Notes under the pieces: model-generated
Seen by the model: only the letters and a program-made list of their open reading frames with translations
Database searches by the model: none
Told to the model about the DNA's origin: nothing
From: a virus
Virus record (IMG/VR): IMGVR_UViG_3300008050_000025
Coordinates: 1 to 64,000 of that record
Reading direction: 5' to 3' (one strand)
Length of the DNA stretch: 64,000 nt
Part shown: positions 5,002 through 47,395 of the stretch, piece by piece
Numbering within the stretch: the first letter of the stretch is position 1
Layout of the letters: every line of letters begins with the position of its first letter
Program-made: the position numbers and the translations under genes

Positions 5002-6438
5002 CTAAGACATCCTCCTGTCCCATTCTCGGTGGCTCTCAAGCCTCGCACGGATAGCCCCAAAGGTTTGTGGGGGTTCATAAGTTAGCTCCTTACCGCTGTC
5101 GTAGACAGTTACCAGAACATCCTCTTCGTAATCAGCTAATGTGATAACGTCGGAGTAAGTTCGGTAATTATACATTCCCAAGTCTCGCACCAAGCTCAAC
5201 TTTCCTTTGAGGGAAGCCTTCATGCTTGAAGTGATTGGTTCTTTGTATACACCACGCCATACACCATTGATGCAAGCAGCGTTACATTTAACTGCAAACT
5301 TGTGTGTGTCTCGGTCAAACTTGCGAAGCAAGCCACCACCACTGCCAAAGATAATGTTATCTCCTGACCACCCATCGCTCTTCATGGCTGAGATAATATC
5401 AGACAACATATCGTAGTCAATACCATCACCTTGAAGAATCTTAATTCGGTCATTGAGAACCTTATATCCTTTTCTGTTCTCAGTAGTTCCAAACGCTTCA
5501 CCAAGGATGCGTAGACACTTGATTACAACTTCAACAGGGTCTCCTGAGTCAGGACGAATAACCAACGGGTTCTTAGCAGCCAAGACATCGGCCTTTAGCT
5601 CCTCACCCCACAAGGTTGAACATGCCTTGAAGATATCATATGAGTCACTTACACATGAATATGCAGCAATGCCTTCCATGTCCCCGAACTTATCAATCAT
5701 GTTGCGGAAAGATTCAACCTCGTTCACTCTACCCCAAGAAGTAACAGTACTGTGCTGCGATGCAGGTACAGAGAAACCAGCCATAAACTCATTGTAGAAG
5801 TAATCACCATACTGTAAAGCTTCTGAGTTATCAGTTCCCTTGAAGCTTGTTAGGTGTGCCAATCCAGCGACACCAGCTTCCTCTCGACAAGACACGCCAC
5901 GATATCCAAAGTCATGCAACATGAAGTCAATATTCTCTGGTGAGCCAGTCTTCTCTAGGAACTCTAACAACATATTCTTGCAGTAGTAAGAGTTAGTTGC
6001 TACAGTAGTTCCACACCATTGATGGCTCAAAAGAGTCTCTACCCAATCTACAACCCATGCGTGTGCTGGGTCAGTATTGGTAATAGTCATCAAGACATTT
6101 CGTTTAGGGACAAGTGAGCCTTCACGAACAGCTTTGATTCGAAGTGGAAGATTTCCACCTAAACGGTCTACGATATCTCGGAACCCAGCTTCGTTGAAGA
6201 TTTGGTCAGTGCCAAAGTGCGCAGCCCAATAGGGAATCGCACTATCAATGTCTGCGTGAGTTACCTTGGTATTCAGCAGTTCCATTACTTGAATCTGCAT
6301 AGAAAACCATACGGTGGCAGGGAATCGTCCTCCCCGTGCCACAATATGAGACTCCATATACTCTGTTCCAGGTGGCAGTTGCAGCCATTGAGATACTTTG
6401 TGTGAGTCAGTTGCTTTACACCAATTTAAAGGAATCAT
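5002..6438 (-). CDS. nadV: nicotinamide phosphoribosyltransferase
   Basis: Makes nicotinamide mononucleotide from nicotinamide and PRPP, the first step of NAD+ salvage. At 478 aa it is close to the family length of about 490. Family motifs are in order: HDFGYRG (175-181), a GTDN loop (201-204), VPASQHS with the catalytic histidine at about 229, and RPDSGDP (295-301) for the phosphoribosyl group. No NMN adenylyltransferase is visible in this window, so the host enzyme or a gene elsewhere must finish NAD+ synthesis. In phages this enzyme can restore NAD+ drained by host defence, which is the likely role beside RtcB. Assignment is confident. Confidence 0.95.
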   Translation of the reverse strand: MIPLNWCKATDSHKVSQWLQLPPGTEYMESHIVARGGRFPATVWFSMQIQVMELLNTKVTHADIDSAIPYWAAHFGTDQIFNEAGFRDIVDRLGGNLPLRIKAVREGSLVPKRNVLMTITNTDPAHAWVVDWVETLLSHQWCGTTVATNSYYCKNMLLEFLEKTGSPENIDFMLHDFGYRGVSCREEAGVAGLAHLTSFKGTDNSEALQYGDYFYNEFMAGFSVPASQHSTVTSWGRVNEVESFRNMIDKFGDMEGIAAYSCVSDSYDIFKACSTLWGEELKADVLAAKNPLVIRPDSGDPVEVVIKCLRILGEAFGTTENRKGYKVLNDRIKILQGDGIDYDMLSDIISAMKSDGWSGDNIIFGSGGGLLRKFDRDTHKFAVKCNAACINGVWRGVYKEPITSSMKASLKGKLSLVRDLGMYNYRTYSDVITLADYEEDVLVTVYDSGKELTYEPPQTFGAIRARLESHREWDRRMS

Positions 6439-6780: not shown

Positions 6781-7109
6781 TCAGAACTCCCATTAGCAAT
6801 GCGCAGAGCATTGGCAATATCTTTCACAGAGTTTTTGTTATCATTCCAAATCCTTTGAGTAACATCCCCACTAGGAGTCATCAAAGTAAAGAAGTCTGTT
6901 GCAATGTGATACGTTTGCCAACGTTTGTAAGAAGAAGATTCAGAGTTCAACTCAAACAACAGGCGCTGATGCAAAGGGGTTGTCCTTTCTTGCTCGTTCT
7001 CCAAAAAGTCTTTTGCTTCCTGTTTAGCTGCAATCATTCCTTGGAAGTCAGTGGAGTCTGCGAGTCGTTCAAAGAGTTCGCGTGGTACTTTAATGTTCGT
7101 TGATTTCAT
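6777..7109 (-). CDS. hypothetical protein, 110 aa
   Basis: Not recognised. Starts MKSTNIKVPRELFERLADST, which resembles the ribbon-helix start of small phage DNA-binding proteins (a beta strand, then PRELFERLA), but the rest shows no clear domain. Overlaps as ATGA link it to rtcB upstream and to the lipoprotein gene downstream. Confidence 0.6.
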   Translation of the reverse strand: MKSTNIKVPRELFERLADSTDFQGMIAAKQEAKDFLENEQERTTPLHQRLLFELNSESSSYKRWQTYHIATDFFTLMTPSGDVTQRIWNDNKNSVKDIANALRIANGSSE

Positions 7110-8233
7110 CCTTTAATGTTGATGATTGGGTGTACGTGGTGAAGTGTTTTAACAAGGTCTTCTTGCAAGTGCATCACTTCATTAATGTCTTTGTATGCGA
7201 AGGGAGACTCATCTAACGTATCTTTAACGACACGGGCTTGAGTGCCTTGCATAGTAGCTTTAAAGTCCTCCATTGAAAGCTCACGCTTAGCTTGCTTTCT
7301 ACCAAGAACTCTTCCTGCTCCATGAGAGCTAGAATATAGTGATTCAGGATTTCCTTTGCCTTCAACAATGAAAGAGCCGTCACGCATGTTGCCTGGAATT
7401 ACACCTGACATACCTTTCTCTGCGTGAGTTGCACCTTTCCTGTGAACAATAGTTCCACCTGTAATCTCTGCGTGGTTGTGGTTTCGGTTAATCAGATGGT
7501 TCCAATCTCCCTCACCAACAATAATCTTGGCCATCACTTTCTCAACAGCTTTAGCAATTCTAGTACGGTTTAACAAAGCAAACTTCAAAGCCCAAGACAT
7601 GTCTTGGTAATAATCAGAGCCTTCTTTGCTCATAATATTAAAACCAAAGTGGTCTTCACGGGGCTTTCCATCAGGAGAAGCTAAACGCATATACTCAGTT
7701 GCAATACCATGACCTACGCCACGACTACCTGAGTGAACAATAATCCAAGTTCTTTCATCGGTTCCAACACCGATTTCAATGAAGTGGTTGCCACCTCCTA
7801 GAGTTCCTAAATTACGGAACCCTTTCCTCTTATCAAATGCCCCCTGCCCCAATGGGGTTAGGTCACTGGCGAATAAGTTTGGAGAATCCTGGAATTCCTC
7901 ATGCGCGTTGAATCCAACGGGCACTTTGCTATAAATCTCATCGAAGATGGCTTTAGAGTTTTCTCTCACTTCATATGCATCAAAAGAAGTCGGAAGAGCT
8001 AACATGCCACATCCAATATCATAACCTACCCAAGCAGGAATGATTACATCTTTCGTTGCCACAACAGCACCAATAGGTAATGCGTAGCCTGGGTGTGCAT
8101 CGGGCATCATAGCTCCTTGCACTGTAAAATCCATATGCATAGCAGATACGAATTGGTCAATGGCTCCTTGCTCTAAGACCTCTGCGTAAATCTTGTATGG
8201 TTTTCCTAAGTCGTCTAGTTCTTTAACTTTCAT
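7106..8233 (-). CDS. rtcB: RtcB-type 3'-phosphate RNA ligase
   Basis: Joins RNA ends carrying 2',3'-cyclic phosphate or 3'-phosphate to 5'-OH ends, using GTP and Mn2+. Length is 375 aa against about 400 for bacterial RtcB. Motifs: DAHPG (45-49), GYDIGCGM with metal-binding Asp72 and Cys75, GGGNHF (His150), HSGSRG (His167), HNHAE (252-256), RKGAT (265-269) and SHGAGR (303-308), where His304 is the expected guanylylated residue. All catalytic residues are present. In a phage that carries tRNAs it probably repairs tRNAs cut by host anticodon nucleases. Confidence 0.96.
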   Translation of the reverse strand: MKVKELDDLGKPYKIYAEVLEQGAIDQFVSAMHMDFTVQGAMMPDAHPGYALPIGAVVATKDVIIPAWVGYDIGCGMLALPTSFDAYEVRENSKAIFDEIYSKVPVGFNAHEEFQDSPNLFASDLTPLGQGAFDKRKGFRNLGTLGGGNHFIEIGVGTDERTWIIVHSGSRGVGHGIATEYMRLASPDGKPREDHFGFNIMSKEGSDYYQDMSWALKFALLNRTRIAKAVEKVMAKIIVGEGDWNHLINRNHNHAEITGGTIVHRKGATHAEKGMSGVIPGNMRDGSFIVEGKGNPESLYSSSHGAGRVLGRKQAKRELSMEDFKATMQGTQARVVKDTLDESPFAYKDINEVMHLQEDLVKTLHHVHPIINIKG

Positions 8234-9507: not shown

Positions 9508-9791
9508 TACTTAGGTGGAAGGTATGTCCAGGTTGCACCTTCCTTTAGTTGAATCCAAAGGTATGATGGAGTTTTAAAAGTATTCTGATTACCTTCATCA
9601 GCTTCTACGATGATGTAATACATTTCATCGTATCCAACAAAGTACGCGCCTTTATAGATAATCTCTCCAGTAAACTCAGCATAAGTCTCTGGCTCTTCGG
9701 GATGCGTAATCGTATACACTAACACCGACATAATCGCTATTATCATAGCACCTAAAAGGAACTGTAATACTTTATCACCAAAATCGCTCAT
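9507..9791 (-). CDS. single-pass membrane protein, 94 aa
   Basis: Not recognised. Residues about 8-28 (LQFLLGAMIIAIMSVLVYTI) form one transmembrane helix. The remaining 65 residues look like a small beta domain. The start overlaps the stop of the sigma-like gene as ATGA. Confidence 0.65.
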   Translation of the reverse strand: MSDFGDKVLQFLLGAMIIAIMSVLVYTITHPEEPETYAEFTGEIIYKGAYFVGYDEMYYIIVEADEGNQNTFKTPSYLWIQLKEGATWTYLPPK

Positions 9792-10360
9792 TCTTCCATG
9801 TCCATTTGTTGTGCTAGACTCGTCTTCAAACGTTTAATCATTTTCACCACCTTAGAGGTTGGCATGTTTGTGTTTCTAGCAATCTTTGAAATGTTGAACT
9901 TACCGTTCAACTTGAAATAACTGACATCAGATAAAATCTCTGACACCAACTCTGAAATGTCGTCGTCGAACTCAATCTCAAACAACTTACTGTCGAAGTC
10001 ATGGTTAGGGTCTGGAAGGTTATCTTCTACAAACTCTCCGCCTATTGCACTCAAGCTAATCACGTCACCATCGACAGCGCGTTTACGATATGCTTCTTTC
10101 GTTAGGTGGGAACGTTTATACCATAGACAAGCCTTGATGTAAGCATTGAACTTCTTAGTTTCAAAGTACTCATCAAAAGGCCCGTCTTCTTTATTGGTCT
10201 TCTCAAACCCTTCTACAGCCAGTAGCATTACAATCTTTAACTCAGAGAGTTTGTCTGCAATCTCAAGGCTTGTAAATGATGGTGTGCGGTTAGCAGCGAA
10301 CATAGCAAGCTTACCATACTTCTTCCATAGCTTTTCCCACTGAGGGTTGGTTAAACTCAT
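9788..10360 (-). CDS. sigma-70-like factor, 190 aa
   Basis: Resembles small phage or ECF sigma factors in layout. An N-terminal helical part (residues about 28-105, ending KACLWYKRSHLTKEAYRKR and VISLSAI) resembles sigma region 2. A C-terminal helix-turn-helix (FNISKIARNTNMPTSKVVKMIKRLK) resembles region 4. An acidic linker joins them. If correct, it redirects host RNA polymerase to a class of phage promoters. It could instead be a plain HTH regulator. It is coupled to the phosphoesterase gene by a 4-bp overlap. Confidence 0.55.
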   Translation of the reverse strand: MSLTNPQWEKLWKKYGKLAMFAANRTPSFTSLEIADKLSELKIVMLLAVEGFEKTNKEDGPFDEYFETKKFNAYIKACLWYKRSHLTKEAYRKRAVDGDVISLSAIGGEFVEDNLPDPNHDFDSKLFEIEFDDDISELVSEILSDVSYFKLNGKFNISKIARNTNMPTSKVVKMIKRLKTSLAQQMDMEE

Positions 10361-12214: not shown

Positions 12215-12301
12215 TGGTAGGAGTGGAGAGAATTGAACTCTCATGCGACCGTTACCCTAGTTTAAATTGCACGGCATATAAGACCGCTGGGATACACTCC
12301 C
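12215..12301 (-). tRNA. tRNA of unresolved isotype, 87 nt
   Basis: Acceptor GGGAGTG/CACTCCT (one G-U), A73, encoded CCA and a perfect T-arm (GAGAG, TTCAATT, CTCTC) show a tRNA. The 50 nt between the acceptor and T-arm do not fold clearly. One 5-bp arm with loop CTTATAT would give anticodon UAU (Ile) but leaves no normal D-arm and a very long variable region. A class II tRNA or a disrupted gene is possible. Confidence 0.6.
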
Positions 12302-12460: not shown

Positions 12461-12859
12461 TTAAATCCCGTTAGGGAAGTTCTCTTCCATAAGGCGGTTC
12501 CAGGTGGCTTCATCCAATACTGGTTCGGATGGTTCGTTCTGAATCCCCACAATAGTCTTGCGAACAAGCTTTAGTCTGTAGATTCGAAACGCCAAAACTC
12601 GTCGGCATTCTTTGCCTTCATGGAATGCTTGTGCCCATCTCCCTGTTGGAGATTGCTCATTTCTGTACTTAGCTTCCACTGCCTCGGCTGCTGCCAAGGA
12701 ACGTTTGTTGGAACTGATGTCCAACGAAACTTGTGAAAGGGCACGATATGTACTGCCATACTCCTTAATCAAATCGGAAGCATGGAATCTTACGTTAATG
12801 TCAAAGAGCCGCTTTTCCCGTGAGGATAGGCGTGTTTCGTAGTAGTGTTTACTATTCAT
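12461..12859 (-). CDS. hypothetical protein, 132 aa
   Basis: Not recognised. A basic helical protein starting MNSKHYYETRLSSREKRLFD. Its start overlaps the stop of the vWA gene, and its stop lies 4 bp from the tRNA-Trp, so it is the last gene of the AAA+/vWA operon. It may be an accessory part of that system. Confidence 0.6.
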   Translation of the reverse strand: MNSKHYYETRLSSREKRLFDINVRFHASDLIKEYGSTYRALSQVSLDISSNKRSLAAAEAVEAKYRNEQSPTGRWAQAFHEGKECRRVLAFRIYRLKLVRKTIVGIQNEPSEPVLDEATWNRLMEENFPNGI

Positions 12860-13788
12860 CAGATTGAAGCTGAGATATAGTTAGAGAGGCTATTTAGCAA
12901 TTGGTGAGGAAATTCTGAGAAGTCTACATTTAGTACATCGTCACCGTACATTTTTTGCATTGTCTCGTCGTTTACTCTGTTAAATGATTGGCCTTGCATG
13001 AAGATTGTGATAATGTTCATCCACTTGCCATACTTTTTGTACATGGCAGCATTTGTGCCCACAGAGGCACTCAAGCTGTATTCAGGCCCATGTACCGAGC
13101 CGAGGGGTTGACCGTCCGTAAGGTTGACAACCATGATATTTTTGGACATGATGTTTTCACTAATCCAACGCTGCAACCCAGGAAGAACAATAAGCTCAGG
13201 AGTTGAGCTAGATTGCCCTTGTGCATTTTTAGGTAGAACCTTCAAAATCCCATCAACCCCTGAATGTTTAGCAGATTTAGGGGAAGTAGAACTGTATGTT
13301 CTGGAAAGACTGACTCCCGAACATCCCCTGCCGTCCTTTACTACATCATCAAAATCATTCTTACTCATGATTTCAATCCTAATGTTATCTCCCAACACCT
13401 CGCGCACTGCTTTGGTGAAAGCTGACACAATAATGTTGCAGTAATCAAAACGTCGTAGATGATAACGTGCCCTTTCATCTTGCCCAGGCAAGGGAGGAAC
13501 GCTGATGTACCCCTTCATTGAACTTGAAGCATCCATAAGGAAGATAATTGTTGAATCCCCTTTCTGTGCCTCAATTTTAGTTGTGAAGATATTATCATCA
13601 TGTGTGTGACGATACAGACGAGCCATGTCAAGGCATCCACCTCTAGTATGTTCAATATCTGCATATTTTCGCTCAGTCAGCATAACCATATGCCGCTTAA
13701 ACTTGTTACACATTTGGTCCCTTCGCTCAAGAAACATAGAAGGGATTTCATCTGGTGAAATCAGATTATCTCTGTGGTATTCTCTCAT
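12859..13788 (-). CDS. von Willebrand factor A protein, CobT-like
   Basis: The vWA fold is indicated by a MIDAS metal site, DASSSM (D-x-S-x-S, residues 86-90), and a later TDG (NLTDGQP, about 220). A preceding segment GGCLDMARLYRHTHDDNIF matches the region before the vWA domain in cobaltochelatase CobT-type proteins. It would work with the AAA+ partner at 15309, as CobS/CobT or MoxR/vWA pairs do, by coupling ATP hydrolysis to remodelling of a metal- or substrate-binding partner. It starts as a TAATG overlap with the 501-aa gene. The client is unknown. Confidence 0.8.
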   Translation of the reverse strand: MREYHRDNLISPDEIPSMFLERRDQMCNKFKRHMVMLTERKYADIEHTRGGCLDMARLYRHTHDDNIFTTKIEAQKGDSTIIFLMDASSSMKGYISVPPLPGQDERARYHLRRFDYCNIIVSAFTKAVREVLGDNIRIEIMSKNDFDDVVKDGRGCSGVSLSRTYSSTSPKSAKHSGVDGILKVLPKNAQGQSSSTPELIVLPGLQRWISENIMSKNIMVVNLTDGQPLGSVHGPEYSLSASVGTNAAMYKKYGKWMNIITIFMQGQSFNRVNDETMQKMYGDDVLNVDFSEFPHQLLNSLSNYISASI

Positions 13789-15293
13789 TACAATACATCC
13801 ACTACGGTTACGTGGTAATCAATAGGGTGAGGTTGTCCCCCAATTGAAATTGAATCATTGCACCAAAAGCGTTTGTACCCTCGGTGAATAGTGTAGGTTT
13901 CAACCTTTGCTTTAAGGTCTTCTGGAATCTCTGCTTTCCCGTGAATACAATCTGGGGAAACCTGGGAAGTTACAGTGTCGCTAAACGAGGCTCCTTCACC
14001 TTTCAGGAAGTTATCGTTGTAGTAAGGGTCAATTCCTGCGTTGAACACCCCGTATGTGTCGGGGTCACTAGACTCGTTAACATAGCTTTTGCCTTTGGAA
14101 ATATAAACACTCCCTAGGTCTTCCCCCCGAAGAGGGTCTTTTGTAGTAGTAATCTTAGCGTTGTCCAGGCGAGTCTTTTTAGTAAAAGCTTCACTCTTTC
14201 GCAAGGTATTTCCTACATCATGTAGAGCACTCTTATCATCATTCCAAACAGAGGAATCAGTTAGGTCTAACTGTAGACAGTTAAGTGCTTTCTCGCTATA
14301 ATCAGTCACTAGGCTGAAAATCTCAGGCATAAAGGACATCGCAGCAAGCTTAGCAAGCTGCCTTTCAGAAGCTTTCTGAATCTTACCCAAAGTTACTCCA
14401 CGCGAAGCCTTAACATTGTCATGCATCCCGTAAAAGTAAAACCTAAACTCCAACAACTTGTAGGCTACGGAGCCATCCTTAAACAAGTCACCTCGGACTT
14501 TTTGGTATGCCTCCCAACCTTTGTTAACTAGCTTTTGGTAGTACTTCTTAATACTAGGGTTTGCCGTAGTGTCCAACTTGATATCTTCAAATGTAGAGAT
14601 AAACTGATGGATATCTTTCACACTTTGGTAGATGAAGTCTGCAACTACGCGACTAGCTCCTTTAAACCCACGATGGTAAGTGCCACTAAAGAACTGCTGA
14701 GCGTTATCCCTATCTCTAAGCATCATGCTCAATCGAGGATTTACTTTGATGGCTTCACTGATTACCCTGAACATACTGACACTCTTACCATTCACATCCA
14801 TCTTGATTGATTTCAGTACAGTAGTGAAAATGTCCCATGAGCTTGAGTAGTAAGTGTTTCCAGGGGAAACGTGTTCATTCTTTCGGAATGCCCTCATGGT
14901 ATAGCCGATGGCAATATCAATATTACCATCGGCAACTACCCCATAAGGAATAATTACGTCAGCCGCTGCAACAACCCGTGGAAGTTGTTCAATGTCAGAC
15001 TCAGAAGAGAATTTAACATTGAATTTTCTGCCAGGAGAGAGGATAGGTCCGTAATACTCCAAAACATTCTTAATAAGGAACAAATTACGAGCGCCTAAGT
15101 CAAGAACTTCATCCTCTTCCGGTAGCCAATTATTCAAATATTCAGCATCAATTTTTGGACCGTTGTAGGGGGGCTTTTCGTAACCAAAGAATACACCATC
15201 ATCACATTCTTCATCGGAACCTTCGTCTTCATCCCAATATTCTGCGGCATCGTCATCGTACTCGTCATCGTAATCGTCGCAATAGTCACTCAT
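13788..15293 (-). CDS. acidic protein of the AAA+/vWA operon, 501 aa
   Basis: Not recognised as a whole. The first 32 residues are extremely acidic (runs of D and E). The rest is a mixed helical/beta protein without an obvious catalytic motif. It lies between the AAA+ and vWA genes and overlaps the latter as TAATG. CobT-type proteins carry an acidic stretch and then a C-terminal vWA domain, so this gene plus the vWA gene may be a split CobT-like protein. Otherwise it is the client or adaptor of the pair. Confidence 0.65.
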   Translation of the reverse strand: MSDYCDDYDDEYDDDAAEYWDEDEGSDEECDDGVFFGYEKPPYNGPKIDAEYLNNWLPEEDEVLDLGARNLFLIKNVLEYYGPILSPGRKFNVKFSSESDIEQLPRVVAAADVIIPYGVVADGNIDIAIGYTMRAFRKNEHVSPGNTYYSSSWDIFTTVLKSIKMDVNGKSVSMFRVISEAIKVNPRLSMMLRDRDNAQQFFSGTYHRGFKGASRVVADFIYQSVKDIHQFISTFEDIKLDTTANPSIKKYYQKLVNKGWEAYQKVRGDLFKDGSVAYKLLEFRFYFYGMHDNVKASRGVTLGKIQKASERQLAKLAAMSFMPEIFSLVTDYSEKALNCLQLDLTDSSVWNDDKSALHDVGNTLRKSEAFTKKTRLDNAKITTTKDPLRGEDLGSVYISKGKSYVNESSDPDTYGVFNAGIDPYYNDNFLKGEGASFSDTVTSQVSPDCIHGKAEIPEDLKAKVETYTIHRGYKRFWCNDSISIGGQPHPIDYHVTVVDVL

Positions 15294-15308
15294 AATTTGT
15301 TCCTAATT

Positions 15309-16157
15309 TTAGAACGTTTGCTTAATGTCCGAAGTGTTCGGACTTTCGAAAAGGTCTTCCTCATCAGCGTACTGACGAATTCGACGCACATCTTCTCCAG
15401 TAGAGGAGTCCATTTCAAACACAGACAAGACTACAAAGTTAAAGATGTCAGCGGAAGAGAATCCCGCCTCTGCCAAAGGAAGGCAGTTAAGAATGGTTCG
15501 TGGCGACACCGAAGCCAACAGGTTTCCTTCTTTTCGCTGTGCAACGATAAAGTCGAAAGCGTGAAGGATAGGCTCCATCAAAGCTAGGGCTTCTGGAGAA
15601 GTCCCACCATCTGACATGTACTTGCCCAACTCCCCACCAGTAAGGTATTTGAAGTGGAACACAGTGCAACGGTCACGCAAAGCTCGGTCGATTGAACGAG
15701 CAGCAGAATATTCGTTACCTACGTTAGCAGTCAGAATAAAGCGAACACCTTTGGCTACCTTGATTTCACGACCAAGCTCTTCAACGAAAACGCTGCGTCG
15801 ATGGTCAAGAAGTGGCAGCAAGATATTCATCGCTGCACTAGAGGCACGGGACACTTCATCCAATGCAATCAAAGTGTTTGGAATCTGGATTTTAGTAGCC
15901 AGTTCCGCCAGTTGAAAGTTAGTGTTACCATCTTTCAATGCAAAGTGACCCAGAAGGGCCATACGAGCATCAGTGGTAGAGCCACAGTTAATAATGGTAA
16001 GTTCCATTCCTAGCTGATTGGCAACTTCCTGACAATAGGAAGTTTTTCCACTTCCTGTCTCGCCAGTAATTAGTACATTGTTGTCTTCGTCTTTAACCAA
16101 GACCTTGATGACCTCTTTTTGGCGGTCGTCAATTACAAAATCGGATTTCAAACTCAT
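15309..16157 (-). CDS. MoxR/CobS-type AAA+ ATPase
   Basis: A single AAA+ module of 282 aa. It contains Walker A GETGSGKT, Walker B TLIALDEVSRAS, a sensor region (FILTANVGNEYSA) and the arginine-finger area DRALRDRC. The VSRAS and ILLPLLDHRRSVFVEE segments are typical of the MoxR/CobS group. It is the first gene of the operon and is followed by the acidic and vWA proteins, the usual partners. The start is ATG at 16157 (MSLKSDFVIDDRQK); the open frame upstream covers the promoter region and is not coding. Confidence 0.88.
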   Translation of the reverse strand: MSLKSDFVIDDRQKEVIKVLVKDEDNNVLITGETGSGKTSYCQEVANQLGMELTIINCGSTTDARMALLGHFALKDGNTNFQLAELATKIQIPNTLIALDEVSRASSAAMNILLPLLDHRRSVFVEELGREIKVAKGVRFILTANVGNEYSAARSIDRALRDRCTVFHFKYLTGGELGKYMSDGGTSPEALALMEPILHAFDFIVAQRKEGNLLASVSPRTILNCLPLAEAGFSSADIFNFVVLSVFEMDSSTGEDVRRIRQYADEEDLFESPNTSDIKQTF

Positions 16158-16207: not shown

Positions 16208-16235
16208 ATCTTACACGCGCCTCCTGTGGTGTCAA
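16208..16235 (-). promoter_or_regulatory. sigma70-like promoter of the AAA+/vWA operon
   Basis: On the minus strand TTGACA and TAAGAT are separated by a 16-bp spacer (CCACAGGAGGCGCGTG). It leaves a leader of about 40 nt before the ATG at 16157. The spacer length and its GGAGG core are shared with the tRNA-cluster promoter at 12321. Confidence 0.75.
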
Positions 16236-24855: not shown

Positions 24856-25458
24856 ATGGATACGCATCTTAAATTCTCAGAACAAACTTCGGAGCAACTG
24901 TGGGATAACGCCATGTGGGGGCTTGCGCTATGTAACGCAGACGGAGGGTTTATTAAAGTAAATCCTACCCTGTGTAATCTGTTGGAATATACGGAGTCAG
25001 AACTACTAGCCAGAACCTTCCAAGATATCACACACCCTGACGACTTATATGATGATGTTCATATGTCTGAGGAAGTGCATAGAGGACATGTTCCATATTA
25101 CATTATGACCAAGCGGTACATCACAAAAACCGATGGTGTCCTATGGGCCAAACTAAGAGTTGACAGAGTTCAACAAGAAGATGGCTCTTTTTGCCACTTC
25201 CTGAGTCAGATTAGTCCAGCAGTAAAGCTTAGCAAACAGCAGGTACTAGAGGCACAACTTAATGGAGTTGTAAGTAAAAAGAAAAAGGACACAGGCGTTA
25301 AAGCTTATGTCCTTCGTAATTTGAAATGGATTATCCCTCTTGTACTTACCGGAGTAGGTTCAACTTATAAAGTATACCATGAGTTCCAGTCAATGAAAGA
25401 AGCTATTGCTCAGCAGATTTCGCAGGAAGAGCCTCAAGAGAAAGCTTCCCGTCCGTAA
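24856..25458 (+). CDS. PAS-domain protein with C-terminal membrane anchor, 200 aa
   Basis: Residues 15-120 fit a PAS fold: LWDNAMWGLALCNADGGFIKVN, then NLLEYTESELLARTFQDITHPDD, then a YITKTDGVLWAKLRVDRV strand and GSFCHFLSQI. A linker rich in Lys (140-145) precedes one membrane helix at about 157-174 (LKWIIPLVLTGVGSTYKVY), then a short charged tail. No kinase, cyclase or other output domain is present. A membrane-bound sensor with no effector is unusual in a phage. The late-type box upstream suggests late expression, so sensing linked to lysis or infection state is possible. Its 3' end overlaps the leftward ATPase gene. Confidence 0.8.
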   Translation: MDTHLKFSEQTSEQLWDNAMWGLALCNADGGFIKVNPTLCNLLEYTESELLARTFQDITHPDDLYDDVHMSEEVHRGHVPYYIMTKRYITKTDGVLWAKLRVDRVQQEDGSFCHFLSQISPAVKLSKQQVLEAQLNGVVSKKKKDTGVKAYVLRNLKWIIPLVLTGVGSTYKVYHEFQSMKEAIAQQISQEEPQEKASRP

Positions 25459-26680
25459 TAATAGGGGTGTACCTCTCTCCCGCCCCATTATCAAGAATCA
25501 TGTCTGCTACCTTCGTGGCTACGTCGTTCTTGATAAAGCGTTTGATGTTTCTGGCTCCATACTCTTCTGAGAAGGAATTATCAACCACGTAGTCAATGAA
25601 TTTCTTGGTGAGCTTTAGGGGAAGATGCCCCATGTGTAGCCTAGCAATCTTTGACGCATCCTTTTTAGACAACGTGTTAAAGTACACTACTTGGTCAATC
25701 CTGTTGATGAACTCAGGCTTAAACTTAGCCTTGAAAGCTTCTTCAATCCCTGCCATAGAGTCTGCATAAGACCTTACGCTTTTACCAAAGCCAATCTCCT
25801 TCTTGCCCATGTTATCCTGGAGACCAATGTTGCTGGTGAACAGGAACAGAGAGTTGCTGAAATCCAACAGTTGGCCTTGGGAATCCATAATGGTTCCATC
25901 GTCTAAGAGAGACAGTAAAAGGTCGAACAACTTGTCAGATGCCTTCTCAATCTCATCGAACAGGAAGACCCACTGACTTGTGGTTGCTGCTTTCTCGGTT
26001 AGCAATCCTGACTTATCATGTCCTACGTATCCTGGAGGGCTTCCGATTAGCTTGGAATACTCATGCTTTGCTGAGTACTCTCCACAGTTAATCTTAATTA
26101 GCTTGTCTCTCCCTAGGAAGGAGTCTGATAGAGTCTTAGCTAGCTCGGTCTTACCCACTCCTGTAGGCCCGATAAAGAAAAGGGTGGCAGAACTTTCAAT
26201 GCCAGCGCCGAGAAGTTTAAGAGGGCTGATAACAGCTTCGATAGCTTCCTCTTGGCCAATGACTTTCCTCGATAGGTCCTTCCTTAGCCTGTTAATCCCT
26301 GCTAAAGTTGTACACCCTTTCTTCTCTTCGTCTAATGAGTCTTCCCGAATCTCCAGGTCACTAAGGTCATTAGCTAAGGAGCTAATGTTGGACATGTCGA
26401 ATACAGGATAGACTTTTAAGATAGATGCGAACAGACATTCAGGGCCAAGCATGTCGCTAACCTTCCCCTCTTTCTGCATCTTTGCAATCGCAGCAAACGT
26501 TTCCTTTGAAACCAGTCTGTCTACTACGAGGTCAACGTAGTCTGTTATTTCTAATTGGCACTTCTTGAATTTTAGTGTAACCTCTTCTACAAATTCAGCA
26601 ATCTCAGCAGAGGCTAGGTGTCGGAGGGTAATAAAGGCTCCGATTTCGGGAACATAGGTAGTATACTTATTGTTTTTCAT
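25403..26680 (-). CDS. ClpA/ClpB D2-like AAA+ unfoldase with IGF loop
   Basis: Has one Clp-type AAA+ module with its C-terminal small domain. The N-terminal about 125 residues are of unknown fold. It contains GPTGVGKTEL (Walker A), a GYVG pore loop in GSPPGYVGHD, VFLFDEIEKA (Walker B), a TSN sensor 1 and EFINRID. It is shorter (425 aa) than ClpA because the first ATPase ring is missing. At I296-G297-F298 it has a KEIGFGK tripeptide where ClpA carries its ClpP-binding IGL, so it may dock on host ClpP. The start ATG at 26680 follows AGGCGG. It overlaps the 26667 gene. Confidence 0.85.
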   Translation of the reverse strand: MKNNKYTTYVPEIGAFITLRHLASAEIAEFVEEVTLKFKKCQLEITDYVDLVVDRLVSKETFAAIAKMQKEGKVSDMLGPECLFASILKVYPVFDMSNISSLANDLSDLEIREDSLDEEKKGCTTLAGINRLRKDLSRKVIGQEEAIEAVISPLKLLGAGIESSATLFFIGPTGVGKTELAKTLSDSFLGRDKLIKINCGEYSAKHEYSKLIGSPPGYVGHDKSGLLTEKAATTSQWVFLFDEIEKASDKLFDLLLSLLDDGTIMDSQGQLLDFSNSLFLFTSNIGLQDNMGKKEIGFGKSVRSYADSMAGIEEAFKAKFKPEFINRIDQVVYFNTLSKKDASKIARLHMGHLPLKLTKKFIDYVVDNSFSEEYGARNIKRFIKNDVATKVADMILDNGAGERYTPIITDGKLSLEALPAKSAEQ

Positions 26681-27014
26681 TTTCACGCCGCCTTTTGGCA
26701 GCATCTTTCAAGTCGGCAAAGGACGTTGGAGCCTCTTTGTCATCCTCAACAGCAGGAGCAGTCGTAGACTTTTGCATGATAAGCATTGCCTTTAACGTCC
26801 TGTCGGTCGCTGTTTGGCACAACTTGAGAGCATCAATCATGTACTTGGCGTAGTCAGAGGCAAGCAATCCACCGTTATCGTGGAACTCCTTGAACACGTC
26901 ATACGCAGCCAAGGCAGCTTTCCTATCATCGGTCGCTGTCTTAACTACATCTTTTACAAGCTTATCCAGCCTTGCTGCTGACATGTAGGTGTTTTTCGGT
27001 CTGTAATTAGCCAT
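26667..27014 (-). CDS. hypothetical protein, 115 aa
   Basis: Not recognised. A helical charged protein starting MANYRPKNTYMSAARLDKLV. The gene ends inside the start of the Clp-like gene and may be an adaptor for it. This is suggested only by the tight coupling. Confidence 0.6.
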   Translation of the reverse strand: MANYRPKNTYMSAARLDKLVKDVVKTATDDRKAALAAYDVFKEFHDNGGLLASDYAKYMIDALKLCQTATDRTLKAMLIMQKSTTAPAVEDDKEAPTSFADLKDAAKRRRENEKQ

Positions 27015-38376: not shown

Positions 38377-38893
38377 TAGGTCTGTGCCCTATCTTGTTTT
38401 GTTTTTCTTCATCAGTAAAGTCATCTGCTACAGAAGCAGCAACTTGATTAGCTCTCTCTTTTCTATCTCTGGCTTCCTTGTCGGAAACCTTCTTAACTCT
38501 GCCTTGGTCTTCCAAGACTTTAAAATCCATCTCAAACTGAGCGTAAGGAGAGATACCTTTCTTAAACTTCAAGGCCTCCTTTGTATTCTCAATCTCTTTC
38601 TCATACCACTCACGGGCGTAACCTTCATCAGTGCATCGGTTATCAGACTCCCTAGTACCACCAATAGTTTTAGTGTACCCTTCACTTACCGTACCTATGA
38701 GTTTCGACTTTGAAGCACAGTGAGGACAGACACCTTCATCTTCTGGATAATCTTTCGGAGGGCTTCCGTTCTCGTCGGAGCAATCCATAATGTAATGCCC
38801 ATCCTTATTAGTCTCGCTGCACCCGTACCTCTTCAAAGGGTCTTCACCAAAGCAATAGAATCTAAACTTCTTGTACTTGTCTACGTTTCTCAT
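38369..38893 (-). CDS. hypothetical protein, 174 aa, with Cys pair
   Basis: Not recognised. Contains GVCPHCASKSKLIGTV, one CxxC knuckle, plus further cysteines in the first 80 residues, then a charged helical C-terminal half. It may be a zinc-ribbon protein. It overlaps the reductase stop and the dUTPase start, so it is coupled to nucleotide metabolism genes. Confidence 0.6.
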   Translation of the reverse strand: MRNVDKYKKFRFYCFGEDPLKRYGCSETNKDGHYIMDCSDENGSPPKDYPEDEGVCPHCASKSKLIGTVSEGYTKTIGGTRESDNRCTDEGYAREWYEKEIENTKEALKFKKGISPYAQFEMDFKVLEDQGRVKKVSDKEARDRKERANQVAASVADDFTDEEKQNKIGHRPNG

Positions 38894-41751
38894 ATCTCAC
38901 AAACCCCTGACTTACATGTGTCAACAGATTCTGTCAGTATCTCCAACTTGTTCTCAGCAATAAGTACATCCAGGTCTAGTGTGGAATGGTCAATGGCTTC
39001 CAGAGGTTCGTTGCCTCTACTACCAGCCTTATAAAACGTGAGGCCCTTCATCTCTCCGATTCCTCCAAGCACCATTTCAGATAGCTCCGCAGAATACTGT
39101 GCTGTGCTAGGAAGATTACAAGTCTTAGAGATTGCAGCATCAATCTTTGACTGAATGGCTACTTGCATCTTGATATGCTCCTCTGGTGTTACATCATATG
39201 CTCCTACGATATGGCTCACATCTCTCCCCTCCAAGAACATTTTCTTGAACAACGGGTCGATAACTAAAGCCTCATTATACACATCCTCAGTTCCTGTCTT
39301 CCACCTTCGCTTATACACAGGGGAGAAGATTGGTTCGATGCCTGTGGAAACTCCCACCACCATTGCCACTGTGCCTGTTGGAGCTACTGTCAACAATGAA
39401 GCATTGCGAAGACCGTTCTTCTTAATGTCTGACCTGATACGTGCAGGAAGAGTTTTCATAAACTGCTCATCCTTTAGCTTTCTCCAATCATATGCTTCGA
39501 AAGAGCCTTTCTCACGGGCAAGATACATGGAAGCCTTGTACGCTTCGTTGCGGAAGGTTTCGAATAGCCTCTCTGTAAACTCAATACATGACTCGGAACC
39601 ATACCTGTACCCTGCTTTGATTAGGAACGTGGCAAAGCCTAGAACTCCTAGACCAATGCGTCGGCTCCTATGACCTACCTCTCTGCACTCTTCGATAGGG
39701 AAGGTGTTTACCTCAAGGATGTCGTCCAGATATCTCACGCCCAACCTAATTGTACGAGCGATTCTTCTCCAATCAATCACACCCTCATCAGATACCATAT
39801 TTGCTAGGTTGACATGTCCCAAGCAACAGTTACCAAATGCTGGTAGAGGTTGCTCTCCACAATTCTTAACGCAAATCCCAGAAGACTTAACGTACTTCCC
39901 GTCACCATGAGAAGTAATAACGTGATAGTTATGGTTATCGTCTACCGTAATGTTGTACACATCCTGAGTTCCAACTTCCTCCACACTCACTACTTTATGG
40001 TTGCCAATCACCAAACTTTTGAACGCCGAGAAGGAAGTGAACCTACATTTCCGATTTACAGAAATAGGGAGACCTTTCTTTATAGCGTATCTCTGCCACA
40101 ACTTCTTAGTGAACTTTCCTTCATTGGCGAACACTTTTCTACCATGACCTACCAGCTCATCGTTAGAGACATCCTTCCAGCGACCATTATCCTCTCCTGT
40201 ATGGGTGGCAAAAGAAACCTTCCATTCGTCCGTCATCTTATGGTAGGGGTTATCCTTGCCTTTCATCTTTTCTGCATGAAGTTGTCTATGCTCACCATGA
40301 GGCATCGCTTGCAAATTATCCATACTGTCGTTCAGACTATTACAATCTATATGATGGATAGCAGTTGTCTTCGGGTCAACGTTTATCCCGTTAAACTCCG
40401 CCATAACCCTGTATTGCCTACGGTTTCTCCGAGCACCTCCGGTCATTTTTGCTCCAACATTAGAAATCTGCCGATAACCATTGCTGTTAAAACTATTCCA
40501 TGGGAAGACACTTTGCCCTTCATGCAAATCAGAAAGATTTACATATTCCAATTCCTTTGTAAGAATCTTATGGTTAGGGGTCGCAATTAGTACAGAGCCA
40601 TCATCTAAAGTTAACTTCCATACCTTACTACCCTGCCCTGTCATACGTGGGTTTCGGCCCATCTTAATCTCTACCTGACCAGTGGTTAGATTAGTAGAAT
40701 ACACGGGAACGTCCTCACCTTTATCAGCAAGCTCTTTAATACTTACACCATTCCGACCATCAGCAACAGCAATAATGCTGTCTCCTGCAACACACGGGTT
40801 AGTGCTATTGAGTGTTTCAAAGTAACTTACATTATTGAACTGGTTTGTGTAGTCTAGGTTAAAGATTCCAGGCTCACCGCACTCCACGGCGTTCCTTAGG
40901 ATTCTGTCCCACAACTCCTTGGCTTTCAGGGGAACCTTCACAGCCTCAGAGAAGGTGTCTGACGGCGTTAGAAGGTGGAAGGCACTTGCCACACCTAATG
41001 CATCCTCTTCGCTCTTAGCGATGACCTTGACGTTATCTACGCCCTGTTCTGACTCTCTTCTCACAGAGTACTGGTCATACCTTACGTGTCTACCCCCAAA
41101 AGTGAAGTACCAATCCTCGTTGTTCTCCACAGCTTCCAAGAATCTATCAGATACTCCCACTGAGATATTAAAGTTCGTAAGCTCATGCCTATCCAGCTTA
41201 GCATCTAAGAACTCCATAAAGTCTGGGTGAGATACGTTAAGGATTGCGATGAGGGCGGTTCTTCTACTCTTCCCTGCCTTTACGTGCGACCCAATCTCAT
41301 TAATCATCTTCATTGTTGAGATAGAGCCGGGAGCAGAGAACGGAATGTTCTGAATGCTATCCCCTTTGGGTCGGATGTTTGAGTAATTAAACCCAATGCC
41401 CCCACCTGAGCAAGCAATCTTGTACATGTCCTGAATCATCTTGCCAATACTGGCTACTGAATCGTCAGGCTCAAGGACATAGCAGTTAAGCATGTTGTAG
41501 TTCGGCCTTCCTGCACCAAACAAAATACGCCCCCCAGGAACTAGGTCGGCACTATTGATTGCATCGTAGAATTTCTTTTCCCACTTCGGCTGCTCTTTAA
41601 TGTCTTCTACAACGGATGCTTGCTTTGCTGCCCTACGGGAAACCTCACTCCAGGTGCTCTCCCCAGGGAAGAAGTACTTGAGCTTAGCTATGTCTTCGTG
41701 AATTGTTCCTTCGGGAATCACGTATCCCGGTACAGCAGGCCTATTCCCCAT
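38890..41751 (-). CDS. nrdJ: class II ribonucleotide reductase with intein
   Basis: Reduces ribonucleotides to deoxyribonucleotides with adenosylcobalamin. The host part is 642 aa after removal of the intein (residues 320-630). NRD motifs include LNCYVLEPDDSV (Cys90 of the disulphide pair), NISVGVSDRF, FNLDYTNQFNN, NP-CGEQPL with the radical cysteine, and LTVAPTGTVAMVVG. The C-terminal CKSGVC shuttles electrons. The NPCGEQPL motif and monomer length fit class II. No NrdB partner is seen. Activity depends on splicing and cobalamin. It overlaps the groES-like gene by 11 bp. Confidence 0.93.
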   Translation of the reverse strand: MGNRPAVPGYVIPEGTIHEDIAKLKYFFPGESTWSEVSRRAAKQASVVEDIKEQPKWEKKFYDAINSADLVPGGRILFGAGRPNYNMLNCYVLEPDDSVASIGKMIQDMYKIACSGGGIGFNYSNIRPKGDSIQNIPFSAPGSISTMKMINEIGSHVKAGKSRRTALIAILNVSHPDFMEFLDAKLDRHELTNFNISVGVSDRFLEAVENNEDWYFTFGGRHVRYDQYSVRRESEQGVDNVKVIAKSEEDALGVASAFHLLTPSDTFSEAVKVPLKAKELWDRILRNAVECGEPGIFNLDYTNQFNNVSYFETLNSTNPCVAGDSIIAVADGRNGVSIKELADKGEDVPVYSTNLTTGQVEIKMGRNPRMTGQGSKVWKLTLDDGSVLIATPNHKILTKELEYVNLSDLHEGQSVFPWNSFNSNGYRQISNVGAKMTGGARRNRRQYRVMAEFNGINVDPKTTAIHHIDCNSLNDSMDNLQAMPHGEHRQLHAEKMKGKDNPYHKMTDEWKVSFATHTGEDNGRWKDVSNDELVGHGRKVFANEGKFTKKLWQRYAIKKGLPISVNRKCRFTSFSAFKSLVIGNHKVVSVEEVGTQDVYNITVDDNHNYHVITSHGDGKYVKSSGICVKNCGEQPLPAFGNCCLGHVNLANMVSDEGVIDWRRIARTIRLGVRYLDDILEVNTFPIEECREVGHRSRRIGLGVLGFATFLIKAGYRYGSESCIEFTERLFETFRNEAYKASMYLAREKGSFEAYDWRKLKDEQFMKTLPARIRSDIKKNGLRNASLLTVAPTGTVAMVVGVSTGIEPIFSPVYKRRWKTGTEDVYNEALVIDPLFKKMFLEGRDVSHIVGAYDVTPEEHIKMQVAIQSKIDAAISKTCNLPSTAQYSAELSEMVLGGIGEMKGLTFYKAGSRGNEPLEAIDHSTLDLDVLIAENKLEILTESVDTCKSGVCEI
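39862..40794 (-). mobile_element. intein with HNH homing endonuclease in nrdJ
   Basis: 311 residues: Cys320 starts CVAGDSIIAV (block A); block B is near VLIATPNHKIL. Block F is VYNITVDDNHNYHV, and block G ends GICVKN with terminal Asn630. The next residue is the +1 cysteine of CGEQPL. The usual penultimate histidine is a lysine. Inside lies an HNH-type domain (AIHHIDCNSLNDSMDNL, then HGEHRQLH) at about 464-492. It sits directly before the catalytic radical cysteine, a frequent intein site. Confidence 0.9.
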
Positions 41752-43776: not shown

Positions 43777-44789
43777 TGACCTTGGATTAGTTTAAGAGCA
43801 TCCATAAGCTCAGTCTTATTGAATATTGTATCAGTGTCAGTAATGTACTGTTCAATCATTGCATCATCAAAAGCCAAGACAGAGCCTTGCATGTTCCTAG
43901 CAACACCTGCCTTTTGAAATACATCTTCAAACACTACGTCCATGTGGGCCAAGTCGTATCGCTTAGTAATGTCTTCCTTTATCTGCTTCTCAGCAAACGT
44001 GTCCAACGTGTCCACCTTAATCCTTAGGATAGTAAAGAAGTCTTTGAACTTGTGCTTCTTGTCAAGCGCAGCAATCTCATCAAGCTTTCCAACAATATGT
44101 TTAATGCCCGTATTGATTTGAGACTTCACAACCTCTACCTTTCCATCAGAGATAAGCAGTTCATGAATGTACTTAGTGGTATTGGCTTCACCAAAACTAG
44201 TGGCGTACTGTGTGCCTAGTACATAAACGTTCTCACCATACTTGTATGGTTTGTGAATGTGCCCCAAGAGCGTAAGCCTGTCTTCAAAATGATTCTTCCT
44301 TACAACAGAGTCATAAGTATAGCCTTTCCTAACAAGGCTTCCATTGAAACCAAAGTGTCCGAAGATTGGAAGTGGTGCTGTCTTTTTGATGTCTTGAATA
44401 ATTCTATCCTCATCATCGTAATGAGGAATGATTGCAAACTCAACCCCACCAATAGCAACTACTTCTGTGTCAGATACAACCTTTACCCTATCTGCTTCAA
44501 ACAGCGACAAAGATGTGTCAGACGCGCCATTACGGACGAGAGTGTCGTGATTACCACGGTTAATAATGATTTGCTTTGCTTTGATTCCATCCAACAACTT
44601 TTGGAACGCAAGAAGCTCTCTCCCTTTCGGGTTTCTACTGTGAAAGATGTCTCCATTGATTACAACAGTGTGAGCTAGTTTCCTATTAGCATAATACAAA
44701 AGGGTTTCCACTTGCTTGTCAAGGTATCCGTAAAGATAGTTTGAACGCAGGTGGAGGTCAGTTAAAACTACTACTCTATGCTGCGACAT
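43773..44789 (-). CDS. gp47-like recombination nuclease subunit (SbcD/Mre11 type)
   Basis: Metallophosphoesterase nuclease: LTDLHLRSNYLYG, VINGDIFHSR, NRGNHDTLV, FGHFGFN and LLGHIHKPY. 338 aa. Acts with the gp46-like ATPase on DNA ends. It overlaps the polymerase gene by 14 bp. Confidence 0.92.
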   Translation of the reverse strand: MSQHRVVVLTDLHLRSNYLYGYLDKQVETLLYYANRKLAHTVVINGDIFHSRNPKGRELLAFQKLLDGIKAKQIIINRGNHDTLVRNGASDTSLSLFEADRVKVVSDTEVVAIGGVEFAIIPHYDDEDRIIQDIKKTAPLPIFGHFGFNGSLVRKGYTYDSVVRKNHFEDRLTLLGHIHKPYKYGENVYVLGTQYATSFGEANTTKYIHELLISDGKVEVVKSQINTGIKHIVGKLDEIAALDKKHKFKDFFTILRIKVDTLDTFAEKQIKEDITKRYDLAHMDVVFEDVFQKAGVARNMQGSVLAFDDAMIEQYITDTDTIFNKTELMDALKLIQGQ

Positions 44790-46407
44790 TTTTGTTATAG
44801 TATTCCATAATCTGTTCTTTATTTAGTACCTTGTAACTGGCATCTTGCTCAACTTCTACGCCACTTCCAAAGGAAACCCCAGCCTCCATGTCTACTTTGA
44901 AGGGTACATCAAATGTCCACCCGTAAAGACCTTTTAGATAACTAAGGTCTGCCATGCAGTAATGCATCAGACTGATTGCCTTATGGTAACTTTCCACAGG
45001 AGCTTGAATCTCTAAGGAGTCATGTACTGTTGCTACTAGGTCCAATTCGATACCGTGCGTTTGCGACAAAGTGTGAACTCTCCAAATTGAATGAAGCATA
45101 AGGTCAGACGCAGAACTCTGAATAACAAAGTTTACACCTTGACGTAAAGCTCTCTCTTGGAAAGCTCTCTTAGGGCTATTAACGTTAGGAAGCCTACGAC
45201 GACGACCGAAGAGACTGGTGGCGTAACCTGTTCTCTTAATCTCTGCTCTTGTAGCTTCAATCCACTTTGGAACTCCTGGGAATGCCTTGAAGTACTTACT
45301 AAAGATTTCTTTGCAGAACGTCACCGACTTCTTAATACTAGCAGCAAGCTTGGTAGGTCCACCGCCGTAAACGATAAGGAACGTCACGCTCTTAGAGATT
45401 TGTCTCTCCTGAGCAGTAATCTTATTGATTGGCTTCTTGAAAATCAGAGAAGCTGTAAACTTGTGCAAGTCTTCCCCAGACTCAAACGCAGCGATTAGGT
45501 TCTTGTCTTGAGAGCAGTGAGCTAGTACCCTAACTTCTGCTGCACTGTAGTCTCCTGAGATGAATACCTTTCCCTTATCAGCACCCATAATACTACGCAA
45601 GTTAACGTGCATAGCTTGTGGGTCTTCATCTTCATCAGGTCTTGGAAGTGTGTGAAAAGATACACCCTTGTTGTACTTCCTGTTAACCATAGAGCCAGCC
45701 TTCTTTCCAGGCTCAAGCTTCTTAACGTTATAAGACGAGTTAGAAAGTCTTCCTGTCTTGGTTACTGAAAAGTTGTATTGGGAATAAATCCTGCCGTCCT
45801 GGTTATACTTAAGAGCCTTAGCCACGCCGTAAACATAATCATTCCTCTGCTTAACCCTCTTCTTCCACTCTAAGTAAGTGTCAATGAACTCAGCACCAAG
45901 AATTTCCTTAGGCGTAGACTTCGCTTTTGAATACACATCGTCCCTAATCCTTTTCAAATTCTCTTGGTTAATCTTAGGAAGCTGTGATGCAGCGTTCCAC
46001 TCTTGAGGGGTTAGCCCAAAACCAGAATTACCTTTGTCGTCCTCTTCATCTGTAAACAGAATCTCAATAACCCCGTGAGGCTTGTACTCAACATTAGGTA
46101 AAGGGTTCTGCCTGTCTAAGATGCCGCGCAACCTATCAATCTCTTTTGTAAGCTGCTCCTCCAGAACCTTAACGTGGTCAGTGTTAGCCTTGATGCCACG
46201 TCGCTCCATATCTCCTACAATAAGGATGACTTCGCTGAGAACTTTATCATATGCCTCAGTAACGCCATCGGCTGTCATACCTAATCTAATCTTCTCCTCT
46301 AGGTGCAACGTGTAGTTGCAATCCATAGCGCAGCCCAAGGCCAGCTTCTCCATCGGGACATTGGCCCAATCAGTTTTGGAGGCATCTTCTCCTTTAATGT
46401 TTAACAT
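44776..46407 (-). CDS. family-A DNA polymerase, polymerase domain (split gene)
   Basis: Carries the full palm and fingers: motif A ISGDYSAAEVRVLA (Asp286), motif B R335-x3-K339-x7-YG, and motif C VHDS (Asp463) where VHDE is usual. Near its start GCAMDCNYTLHLEE is the third exonuclease motif. Exo I and II are in the preceding gene (46409), which ends one base before this ATG. The enzyme is thus split inside its 3'-5' exonuclease domain. Whether it works as two chains or is joined by frameshifting is not known. Confidence 0.9.
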   Translation of the reverse strand: MLNIKGEDASKTDWANVPMEKLALGCAMDCNYTLHLEEKIRLGMTADGVTEAYDKVLSEVILIVGDMERRGIKANTDHVKVLEEQLTKEIDRLRGILDRQNPLPNVEYKPHGVIEILFTDEEDDKGNSGFGLTPQEWNAASQLPKINQENLKRIRDDVYSKAKSTPKEILGAEFIDTYLEWKKRVKQRNDYVYGVAKALKYNQDGRIYSQYNFSVTKTGRLSNSSYNVKKLEPGKKAGSMVNRKYNKGVSFHTLPRPDEDEDPQAMHVNLRSIMGADKGKVFISGDYSAAEVRVLAHCSQDKNLIAAFESGEDLHKFTASLIFKKPINKITAQERQISKSVTFLIVYGGGPTKLAASIKKSVTFCKEIFSKYFKAFPGVPKWIEATRAEIKRTGYATSLFGRRRRLPNVNSPKRAFQERALRQGVNFVIQSSASDLMLHSIWRVHTLSQTHGIELDLVATVHDSLEIQAPVESYHKAISLMHYCMADLSYLKGLYGWTFDVPFKVDMEAGVSFGSGVEVEQDASYKVLNKEQIMEYYNKNVAA

Positions 46408-46408
46408 A

Positions 46409-47395
46409 TTACCAGTCTTTCAGTTGTTCAGGGAAGTATTCTTTCACTAGGCTCATTAAAGAGTGAGACCTGTTCTCATCTACCAGTGAGTGCATGAATT
46501 GAATGCAGTGTACATTTTGAAAAGGCTTTGACCCACGCTTCCTTAGAAACTTTTGGTCAAACTTAGAATTTGCATATATCTTCATTACATTTGGGTTCGC
46601 ATGTAGTTCAGAGGACAGTTCATAAATCATATCAAGCTCTTCATCTGTGAACTTGGATTCGAAGTGGTGCATGGGTATGATGAACGCGCTGTCCTCTTCG
46701 TATGAACCTCCAATACAAGTAATGACATCCTTATTGAAGTCAAGTCCTGTAGTCTCAAGGTCCATACCAATCTTCTCAGCCAAGTTAGCCTTACGGAACT
46801 CTTCTCGTACAAGTTCCATAGTATCACACAGTACTACACCAGCCTCTTTGAACTTGTCAACCTTGAGGATGTTCCTGCTATAAGAGTTAGTTAAGTCCTC
46901 TACAAAAACATTCCTAACCATAGGCTCTAGGTAAACTGTCTCTGGCGCAAAGGTTGGGAACACTACAATCTGTTTGCCAGTTGTCTCACTCTCAATAATG
47001 AACTCACAGCCACGCCTATTAAGAAGGCCTCTCTGCTTGAGCACTACCTTCAAAGCAATATCCCCCATGAGGATTACCAAGTCTGGTTGGATTTCTTCCA
47101 ACTCTTTCATGATAATCTCTCTGTGGAACTCAAACTCAGCCAACTCCAGGTCATCAAACTCTTTGTTGTAGTCTTTGATTGCTGGAATGAACTGGTAGTT
47201 GCACATAGGACTTTCCGCAATGATACCTTTCACTAAGTACTCAGCGTCTTCTTCCATGTCGGCAACGTGCCCACCGTTTTTAGTGAGGGAGGGGGTCACG
47301 AAGACAATCTTCTCCGTTCCAACATCCTCCTGATAGTTGTTGTAGGTCTTAGGGTCTTTTAACTTCCCCAAAGATTCTTCTAGTTTCTTGGACAT
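46409..47395 (-). CDS. DNA polymerase N-terminal part: UDG-like domain plus exonuclease
   Basis: Residues about 31-170 look like a family-4/5-type uracil-DNA glycosylase fold (IVFVTPSLTKNGGH, LVILMGDIALKVVLKQRG, VVFPTFAPETVYLEP). Residues 205-290 contain Exo I (MDLETTGLD, Asp212 and Glu214) and Exo II (YANSKFDQKFL, Asn276 and Asp280) of a DnaQ-like proofreading domain. Exo III is on the next gene. The first nucleotides are only 21 bp from the divergent sigma-like gene. Confidence 0.8.
   Translation of the reverse strand: MSKKLEESLGKLKDPKTYNNYQEDVGTEKIVFVTPSLTKNGGHVADMEEDAEYLVKGIIAESPMCNYQFIPAIKDYNKEFDDLELAEFEFHREIIMKELEEIQPDLVILMGDIALKVVLKQRGLLNRRGCEFIIESETTGKQIVVFPTFAPETVYLEPMVRNVFVEDLTNSYSRNILKVDKFKEAGVVLCDTMELVREEFRKANLAEKIGMDLETTGLDFNKDVITCIGGSYEEDSAFIIPMHHFESKFTDEELDMIYELSSELHANPNVMKIYANSKFDQKFLRKRGSKPFQNVHCIQFMHSLVDENRSHSLMSLVKEYFPEQLKDW

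Follow-up and report, generated by a model that had tools for sequence, protein, structure and literature searches.

The question raised by this locus is what a phage gains from an AAA+ ATPase of the MoxR/CobS type that is encoded together with a 501-aa protein and a vWA protein. The original prediction considered assistance to cobalt chelation, a defence role and a remodelling role. The window analysed in this study is a 64,000-nucleotide stretch, corresponding to positions 1-64,000 of a 101,825-bp IMG/VR virus record. Four minus-strand ORFs were confirmed at the place where an operon of four genes had been predicted. The features of interest are as follows.

15309-16157, minus strand: MoxR/CobS-type AAA+ ATPase, 282 aa (AAA_5, phrog_249, relatives' gene order)
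13788-15293, minus strand: 501-aa protein, assigned as a CobT-like N-terminal (metallopeptidase-like) half on a gene of its own (relatives' HMM, hhalign)
12859-13788, minus strand: vWA/MIDAS subunit, 309 aa, assigned as the corresponding CobT-like C-terminal half, likewise on its own gene (relatives' HMM, hhalign)
12461-12859, minus strand: 132-aa ORFan, coupled in translation to the vWA gene through TGATG (phmmer, small-gene profile)
16208-16235, minus strand: promoter-like sequence TTGACA-16-TAAGAT preceding the AAA+ ATG (no better than chance)
9788-10360, minus strand: 190-aa sigma-factor-like protein, the array's syntenic neighbour in relatives (with homologues in 11 of the 12 contigs compared)

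The genes had been described as joined by overlaps; this holds for the 501-aa and vWA genes (TAATG) and for the vWA and 132-aa genes (TGATG), with overlaps of 1 nt each, but not for the AAA+ and 501-aa genes, which are separated by a 15-nt gap. Although the mechanical ORF of the AAA+ gene extends to GTG 16337, ATG 16157 is preferred as the start because relatives start at the equivalent position. A separate sigma70-like promoter was not borne out: the candidate site (16235-16208) scored 10/12, and the region held 9 promoter-like matches as compared with 8.5 ± 3.2 in shuffled sequences. The 132-aa gene is followed by tRNA genes, and a third tRNA-like gene (12218-12301, minus strand; Rfam 31.2 bits) lies between the two reported by ARAGORN.

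The AAA+ protein, whose motifs are intact, matched AAA_5 (E=4.5e-18) and phrog_249, annotated 'porphyrin biosynthesis' (E=2.7e-24), and is thus of the phrog_249 type. An alignment search yielded 554 AAA+ relatives in viral contigs. The nearest (L010-L018), from contigs that share the gene order, were 42-47% identical to the window protein. In these nearest relatives, the genes that follow AAA+ encode, in order, a protein of ~410 aa that usually carries HExxH, a small protein (hereafter SM) and a vWA protein. When 12 related contigs were compared, AAA+ and vWA genes were present in all 12, and the 501-aa gene was found in 11 by BLAST and in the twelfth, L016, by profile. A joint system presupposes co-occurrence across related phages, and the triad indeed co-occurred in every related contig. 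These contigs also carry a sigma-like gene (11/12), a ClpX-like AAA+ gene (12/12) and a UvsX-like gene (12/12); the homologue of the 190-aa protein in L013 matched the phrog_351 sigma factor (E=6.5e-5). The array is therefore core to this phage lineage. Elsewhere in the window, a second AAA+ protein resembling ATP-dependent proteases (25403-26704, minus strand; phrog_4871) is likewise present in all 12 contigs, and a nicotinamide phosphoribosyltransferase is encoded at 5002-6438 on the minus strand (phrog_448, E=1.3e-134).

The 501-aa protein had been called acidic and of unknown fold. Its acidity is confined to the first ~40 residues (20 D/E), the pI without the first 45 residues being 6.6. 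Searched alone, it had no match in Pfam, PHROGs, NCBIfam or phage BLAST, and neither it nor the vWA protein matched any of 50,697 phage records by BLAST; an AlphaFold model of the 501-aa protein was poor (pLDDT 55) and gave no fold match. Its kinship emerged through profiles of its relatives. An HMM of the relatives' ~410-aa proteins, built with the window protein left out, matched it at E=8.6e-26, and the same-family HMM with more relatives at E=9.9e-31, the next-best ORF of the window scoring E 0.08 or worse. When both the window and L016 proteins were left out of the profile, they matched at E=5.7e-29 and 9.1e-10, respectively. Because these profiles were built without the window protein, we equate the 501-aa protein with the relatives' ~410-aa subunit. 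In fused phage proteins, the counterpart of this family is the N-terminal half (hhalign E~1e-8); the family's profile gave no signal directly against cellular CobT, the link running only through the fused family.

The vWA protein carries an intact MIDAS site, as predicted, with D86, S88, S90, T196 and D225 invariant in 8 relatives, and an HMM of relatives matched it at E=3.7e-56. As a single sequence it aligned to the C-terminal half of the fused proteins (hhalign E=3.5e-9), as did the split vWA family with relatives (E=1.7e-16); the vWA family also matched cellular CobT (hhalign E=8e-6), which indicates no more than kinship. The window thus encodes, near its AAA+ protein, a CobT-like partner with GxLD and a DxSxS vWA domain. 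Given that both halves map onto the fused proteins, and that cellular CobT is colinear with these over 556 columns (E=5.6e-10), the set is a split CobS/CobT-like system. Sequence comparison thus identifies the 501-aa and vWA proteins as the N- and C-terminal halves, respectively, of a divided CobT-like protein, which supersedes the earlier description of an unknown fold and upholds the suggested likeness to CobS/CobT at the level of homology, but not a role in cobalt chelation (see below).

After the set of split contigs was extended by a vWA search, the split array was found in 15 non-redundant contigs. In all 15, the AAA+ gene and both CobT-like halves are adjacent and the halves occupy two genes, unlike in the fused form; in most other phages found, a single protein of ~600-750 aa is encoded close to the same AAA+, its N-terminal half bearing HExxH and NxxED and its C-terminal half bearing GxLD and MIDAS. 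On the AAA+ tree, the 15 split AAA+ proteins fall on one side of a branch (support 100/99). As fusion is widespread among phages and also characterises cellular CobT, the split is probably derived, with the root of the tree not fixed. The window and L016 proteins form long branches on the AAA+ tree, which joins them (92/88); the vWA tree does not, without deciding against a sister relation (p-AU 0.28), so that HExxH may have been lost once or twice. In L016, the ~410-aa subunit appears to be cut again (6792-8134), its conserved C-terminal tail seemingly lying on the next ORF (7838-8134); this further cut may be real or an error. As a separate observation, the window's DNA polymerase is also split between two adjacent minus-strand genes (44776-46407 and 46409-47395, corresponding to phrog_17 positions 797-1250 and 554-785), and its halves are likewise separate genes in G013, G017 and G020.

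Fused pairs in phages are already published and known, and the split clade is a variant of them. They comprise phrog_249 with phrog_459/1576, the 'CobS' and 'peptidase' of T4-like cyanophages, and the group 2.2 jumbo phages of Iyer et al. 2021. The window set shares with them the AAA+ family and an adjoining CobT-like partner with vWA/MIDAS and GxLD; it differs in that the partner lies on two genes and HExxH/NxxED is lost. Viral cobST was described by Liu et al. 2021 (PMC8651126), who also report a split cobT in HHTV-2 and suggest that host CobN is used. HHTV-2 is a tailed virus in which the vWA domain likewise has its own ORF, but, unlike in the window, other ORFs lie between vWA and AAA+ and the order is different. 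The single long ORF between them lacks HExxH, and the HHTV-2 split looks like an independent arrangement. A split clade with an extra subunit and loss of the zinc motif is not described in the accessible portions of PMC8651126 or PMC7824862.

The loss of the zinc motif was observed directly in the alignments, as were the gene order, the homologies and the split. HExxH, NxxED and MIDAS, a zincin-like combination, are kept in 35/35 non-redundant full-length fused phage proteins. Within the split clade, HExxH is kept in 13/15 members and lost in the window and L016. At the aligned sites of the window protein, HELHH is replaced by RAFRK and NxxED by STFED, so that the metallopeptidase motif is absent; L016 reads FSIIS at the HExxH site. 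HExxH was also absent from 14/14 rhizobial CobT proteins and from the N-terminal region of a solved CobT; in the alignment of cellular CobT with the fused phage proteins, RQARH of the former falls on HEGSH of the latter. The SM gene sits between the two halves in 13 split-clade members. No SM gene was detected when the full window record and the L016 contig were searched in six frames with a profile, whereas the same search recovered it in two control contigs (E=6.9e-37 and 9.4e-21) that the profile did not include. Loss of SM thus accompanies loss of HExxH, which is suggestive only, as the two cases may represent one event. The 132-aa protein was considered as the missing SM and rejected (small-gene profile E=3.9); phmmer found only an identical copy on one near-identical contig.

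These losses, together with the long branches, could also be read as drift towards loss of function, that is, as a former AAA+ metalloprotease on its way out after losing its activity and small partner. We regard such a decaying remnant as improbable: all ORFs are intact and closely coupled, and the AAA+ and MIDAS motifs have been kept despite fast change.

The likeness to cobaltochelatase CobS/CobT (TIGR01650, TIGR01651; PDB 9uka) lies in an AAA+ protein paired with a vWA protein that has a colinear N-terminal domain, and the window, like cellular CobT, lacks HExxH; unlike in cobaltochelatase, CobT is in two pieces and neither CobN nor an equivalog match is present. A viral CobST might borrow CobN from the host, insert cobalt into the corrin ring and supply the phage's own B12-dependent reductase, as proposed for phage cobST clusters (PMC8651126). 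The colinearity of cellular CobT with the fused proteins agrees with this proposal, and so does the predicted cobalamin-dependent reductase, which proved to be real: a class II NrdJ is encoded at 38890-41751 on the minus strand, with an intein at about residues 320-631. (Relatives of NrdJ in G013, G015, G017 and G020 are open frames of 640-670 aa and so lack an intein of that size.) NrdJ was found in 5/6 split-clade records with a length of 57 kb or above, including that of the window. However, CobN (PF02514) is absent from the 101,825-bp record, although a host could supply one; the AAA+ protein scored 15.7 bits against the CobS equivalog TIGR01650 (cut-off 558.55), and neither half matched the CobT equivalog TIGR01651. 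Moreover, HExxH, conserved in the phage relatives, is not a feature of CobT. Surveying the triad with class II reductase, as had been suggested, revealed an association within the split lineage but not among phages with the fused form: in 30 records with related, mostly fused, AAA+ genes, NrdJ exceeded the cut-off in 3, class I NrdB was found in 3, and most had neither reductase. P-SSM2 and Mosig carry a class I reductase. The tie between the array and NrdJ is therefore one of lineage, not of function. With no CobN, no equivalog match and NrdJ tied to lineage, the proposed helper role in cobalt chelation loses its footing, and supply of B12 to the reductase is unlikely. With its split partner and lost zinc site, the window set represents an atypical form of an already known phage system; that it is a vitamin B12 enzyme is improbable.

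A counter-defence or conflict function was the other option raised, since conflict systems have MoxR and vWA proteins together, as in ternary systems (PMC7159879). In the window, bpMoxR (PF20030) reached 21.7 bits, below the cut-off of 27, no beta-propeller match was found, and PADLOC returned weak generic AAA+ matches only. The array is moreover part of the lineage's core gene set, not a mobile cassette. A conflict module is accordingly very unlikely.

We favour the reading, at a probability of roughly 0.55, in which the products of the three genes form a single MoxR/CobS-type remodelling (chaperone) machine driven by ATP, with a pseudo-metallopeptidase as its substrate part, and do not make up a cobaltochelatase. 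The combination of a MoxR AAA+ with a vWA adaptor recalls the NorQD, RavA-ViaA and CbbQO chaperones; none of these is known to have a CobT-like N-terminal half as a separate subunit. For a fused relative whose structure was predicted (pLDDT 75), the best PDB match was the vWA domain of NorD in NorQD (E=9.8e-9), with the MIDAS of Rea1 lower in the same list; both belong to AAA+ adaptor systems. The N-terminal half of this relative had no solved structural match, so the 'metallopeptidase' label derives solely from the conserved motif. The AAA+ protein would act as a ring motor on which the vWA/MIDAS protein may dock, as adjacency and the NorD match of the relative suggest. The 501-aa protein would contact the substrate and would stay attached to the vWA protein, much as the two halves of the fused relatives stay together. 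Its domain is retained but the zinc motif is not, so its action on a phage or host protein would be binding and remodelling, without cleavage. Complex formation is suggested by adjacency and by fusion elsewhere; ring assembly and chaperone activity are likewise predicted from sequence.

As for the substrate, the core status of the set favours a protein of virion assembly or of the replication complex over a metabolic enzyme of the host. A chaperone of virion assembly would specify the substrate of the remodelling machine rather than contradict it. Iyer et al. 2021 (PMC7824862) suggested such a role for the jumbo-phage pair in which MoxR accompanies a fused metallopeptidase-vWA protein, the precedent being p618/p892 of Acidianus two-tailed virus (cited in PMC7824862 and PMC7911831), and it fits a core gene set. 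However, the array neighbours sigma-like, ClpX-like and UvsX genes and lies outside the structural module (major head at ~57 kb, portal/terminase at ~96-99 kb), and the fused pairs of P-SSM2 and Mosig sit among replication genes. We consider virion assembly possible but tentative.

T4-like cyanophages carry the pair among their core genes, and it is also common in other phages; its two published readings conflict: a B12 enzyme (PMC8651126, in which the peptidase name is called a mistake) versus an AAA+-peptidase chaperone (PMC7824862). The invariant HExxH...NxxED of the 35 phage proteins, together with the absence of HExxH from the 14 rhizobial CobT proteins, favours the AAA+-peptidase reading. 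Phage 'CobST' may, as a tentative proposal, be at heart an ATP-driven zinc protease (motor, adaptor and zincin), which this lineage split and gave a fourth subunit; the window phage and one other would then have dropped the zinc site and the fourth subunit to leave a non-cutting remodeller, as cellular CobT may have done on its own path. The split clade amounts to a natural experiment, in which the same machine occurs with and without its zinc site and the small subunit is lost in step, so that whether the machine is a protease becomes directly testable.
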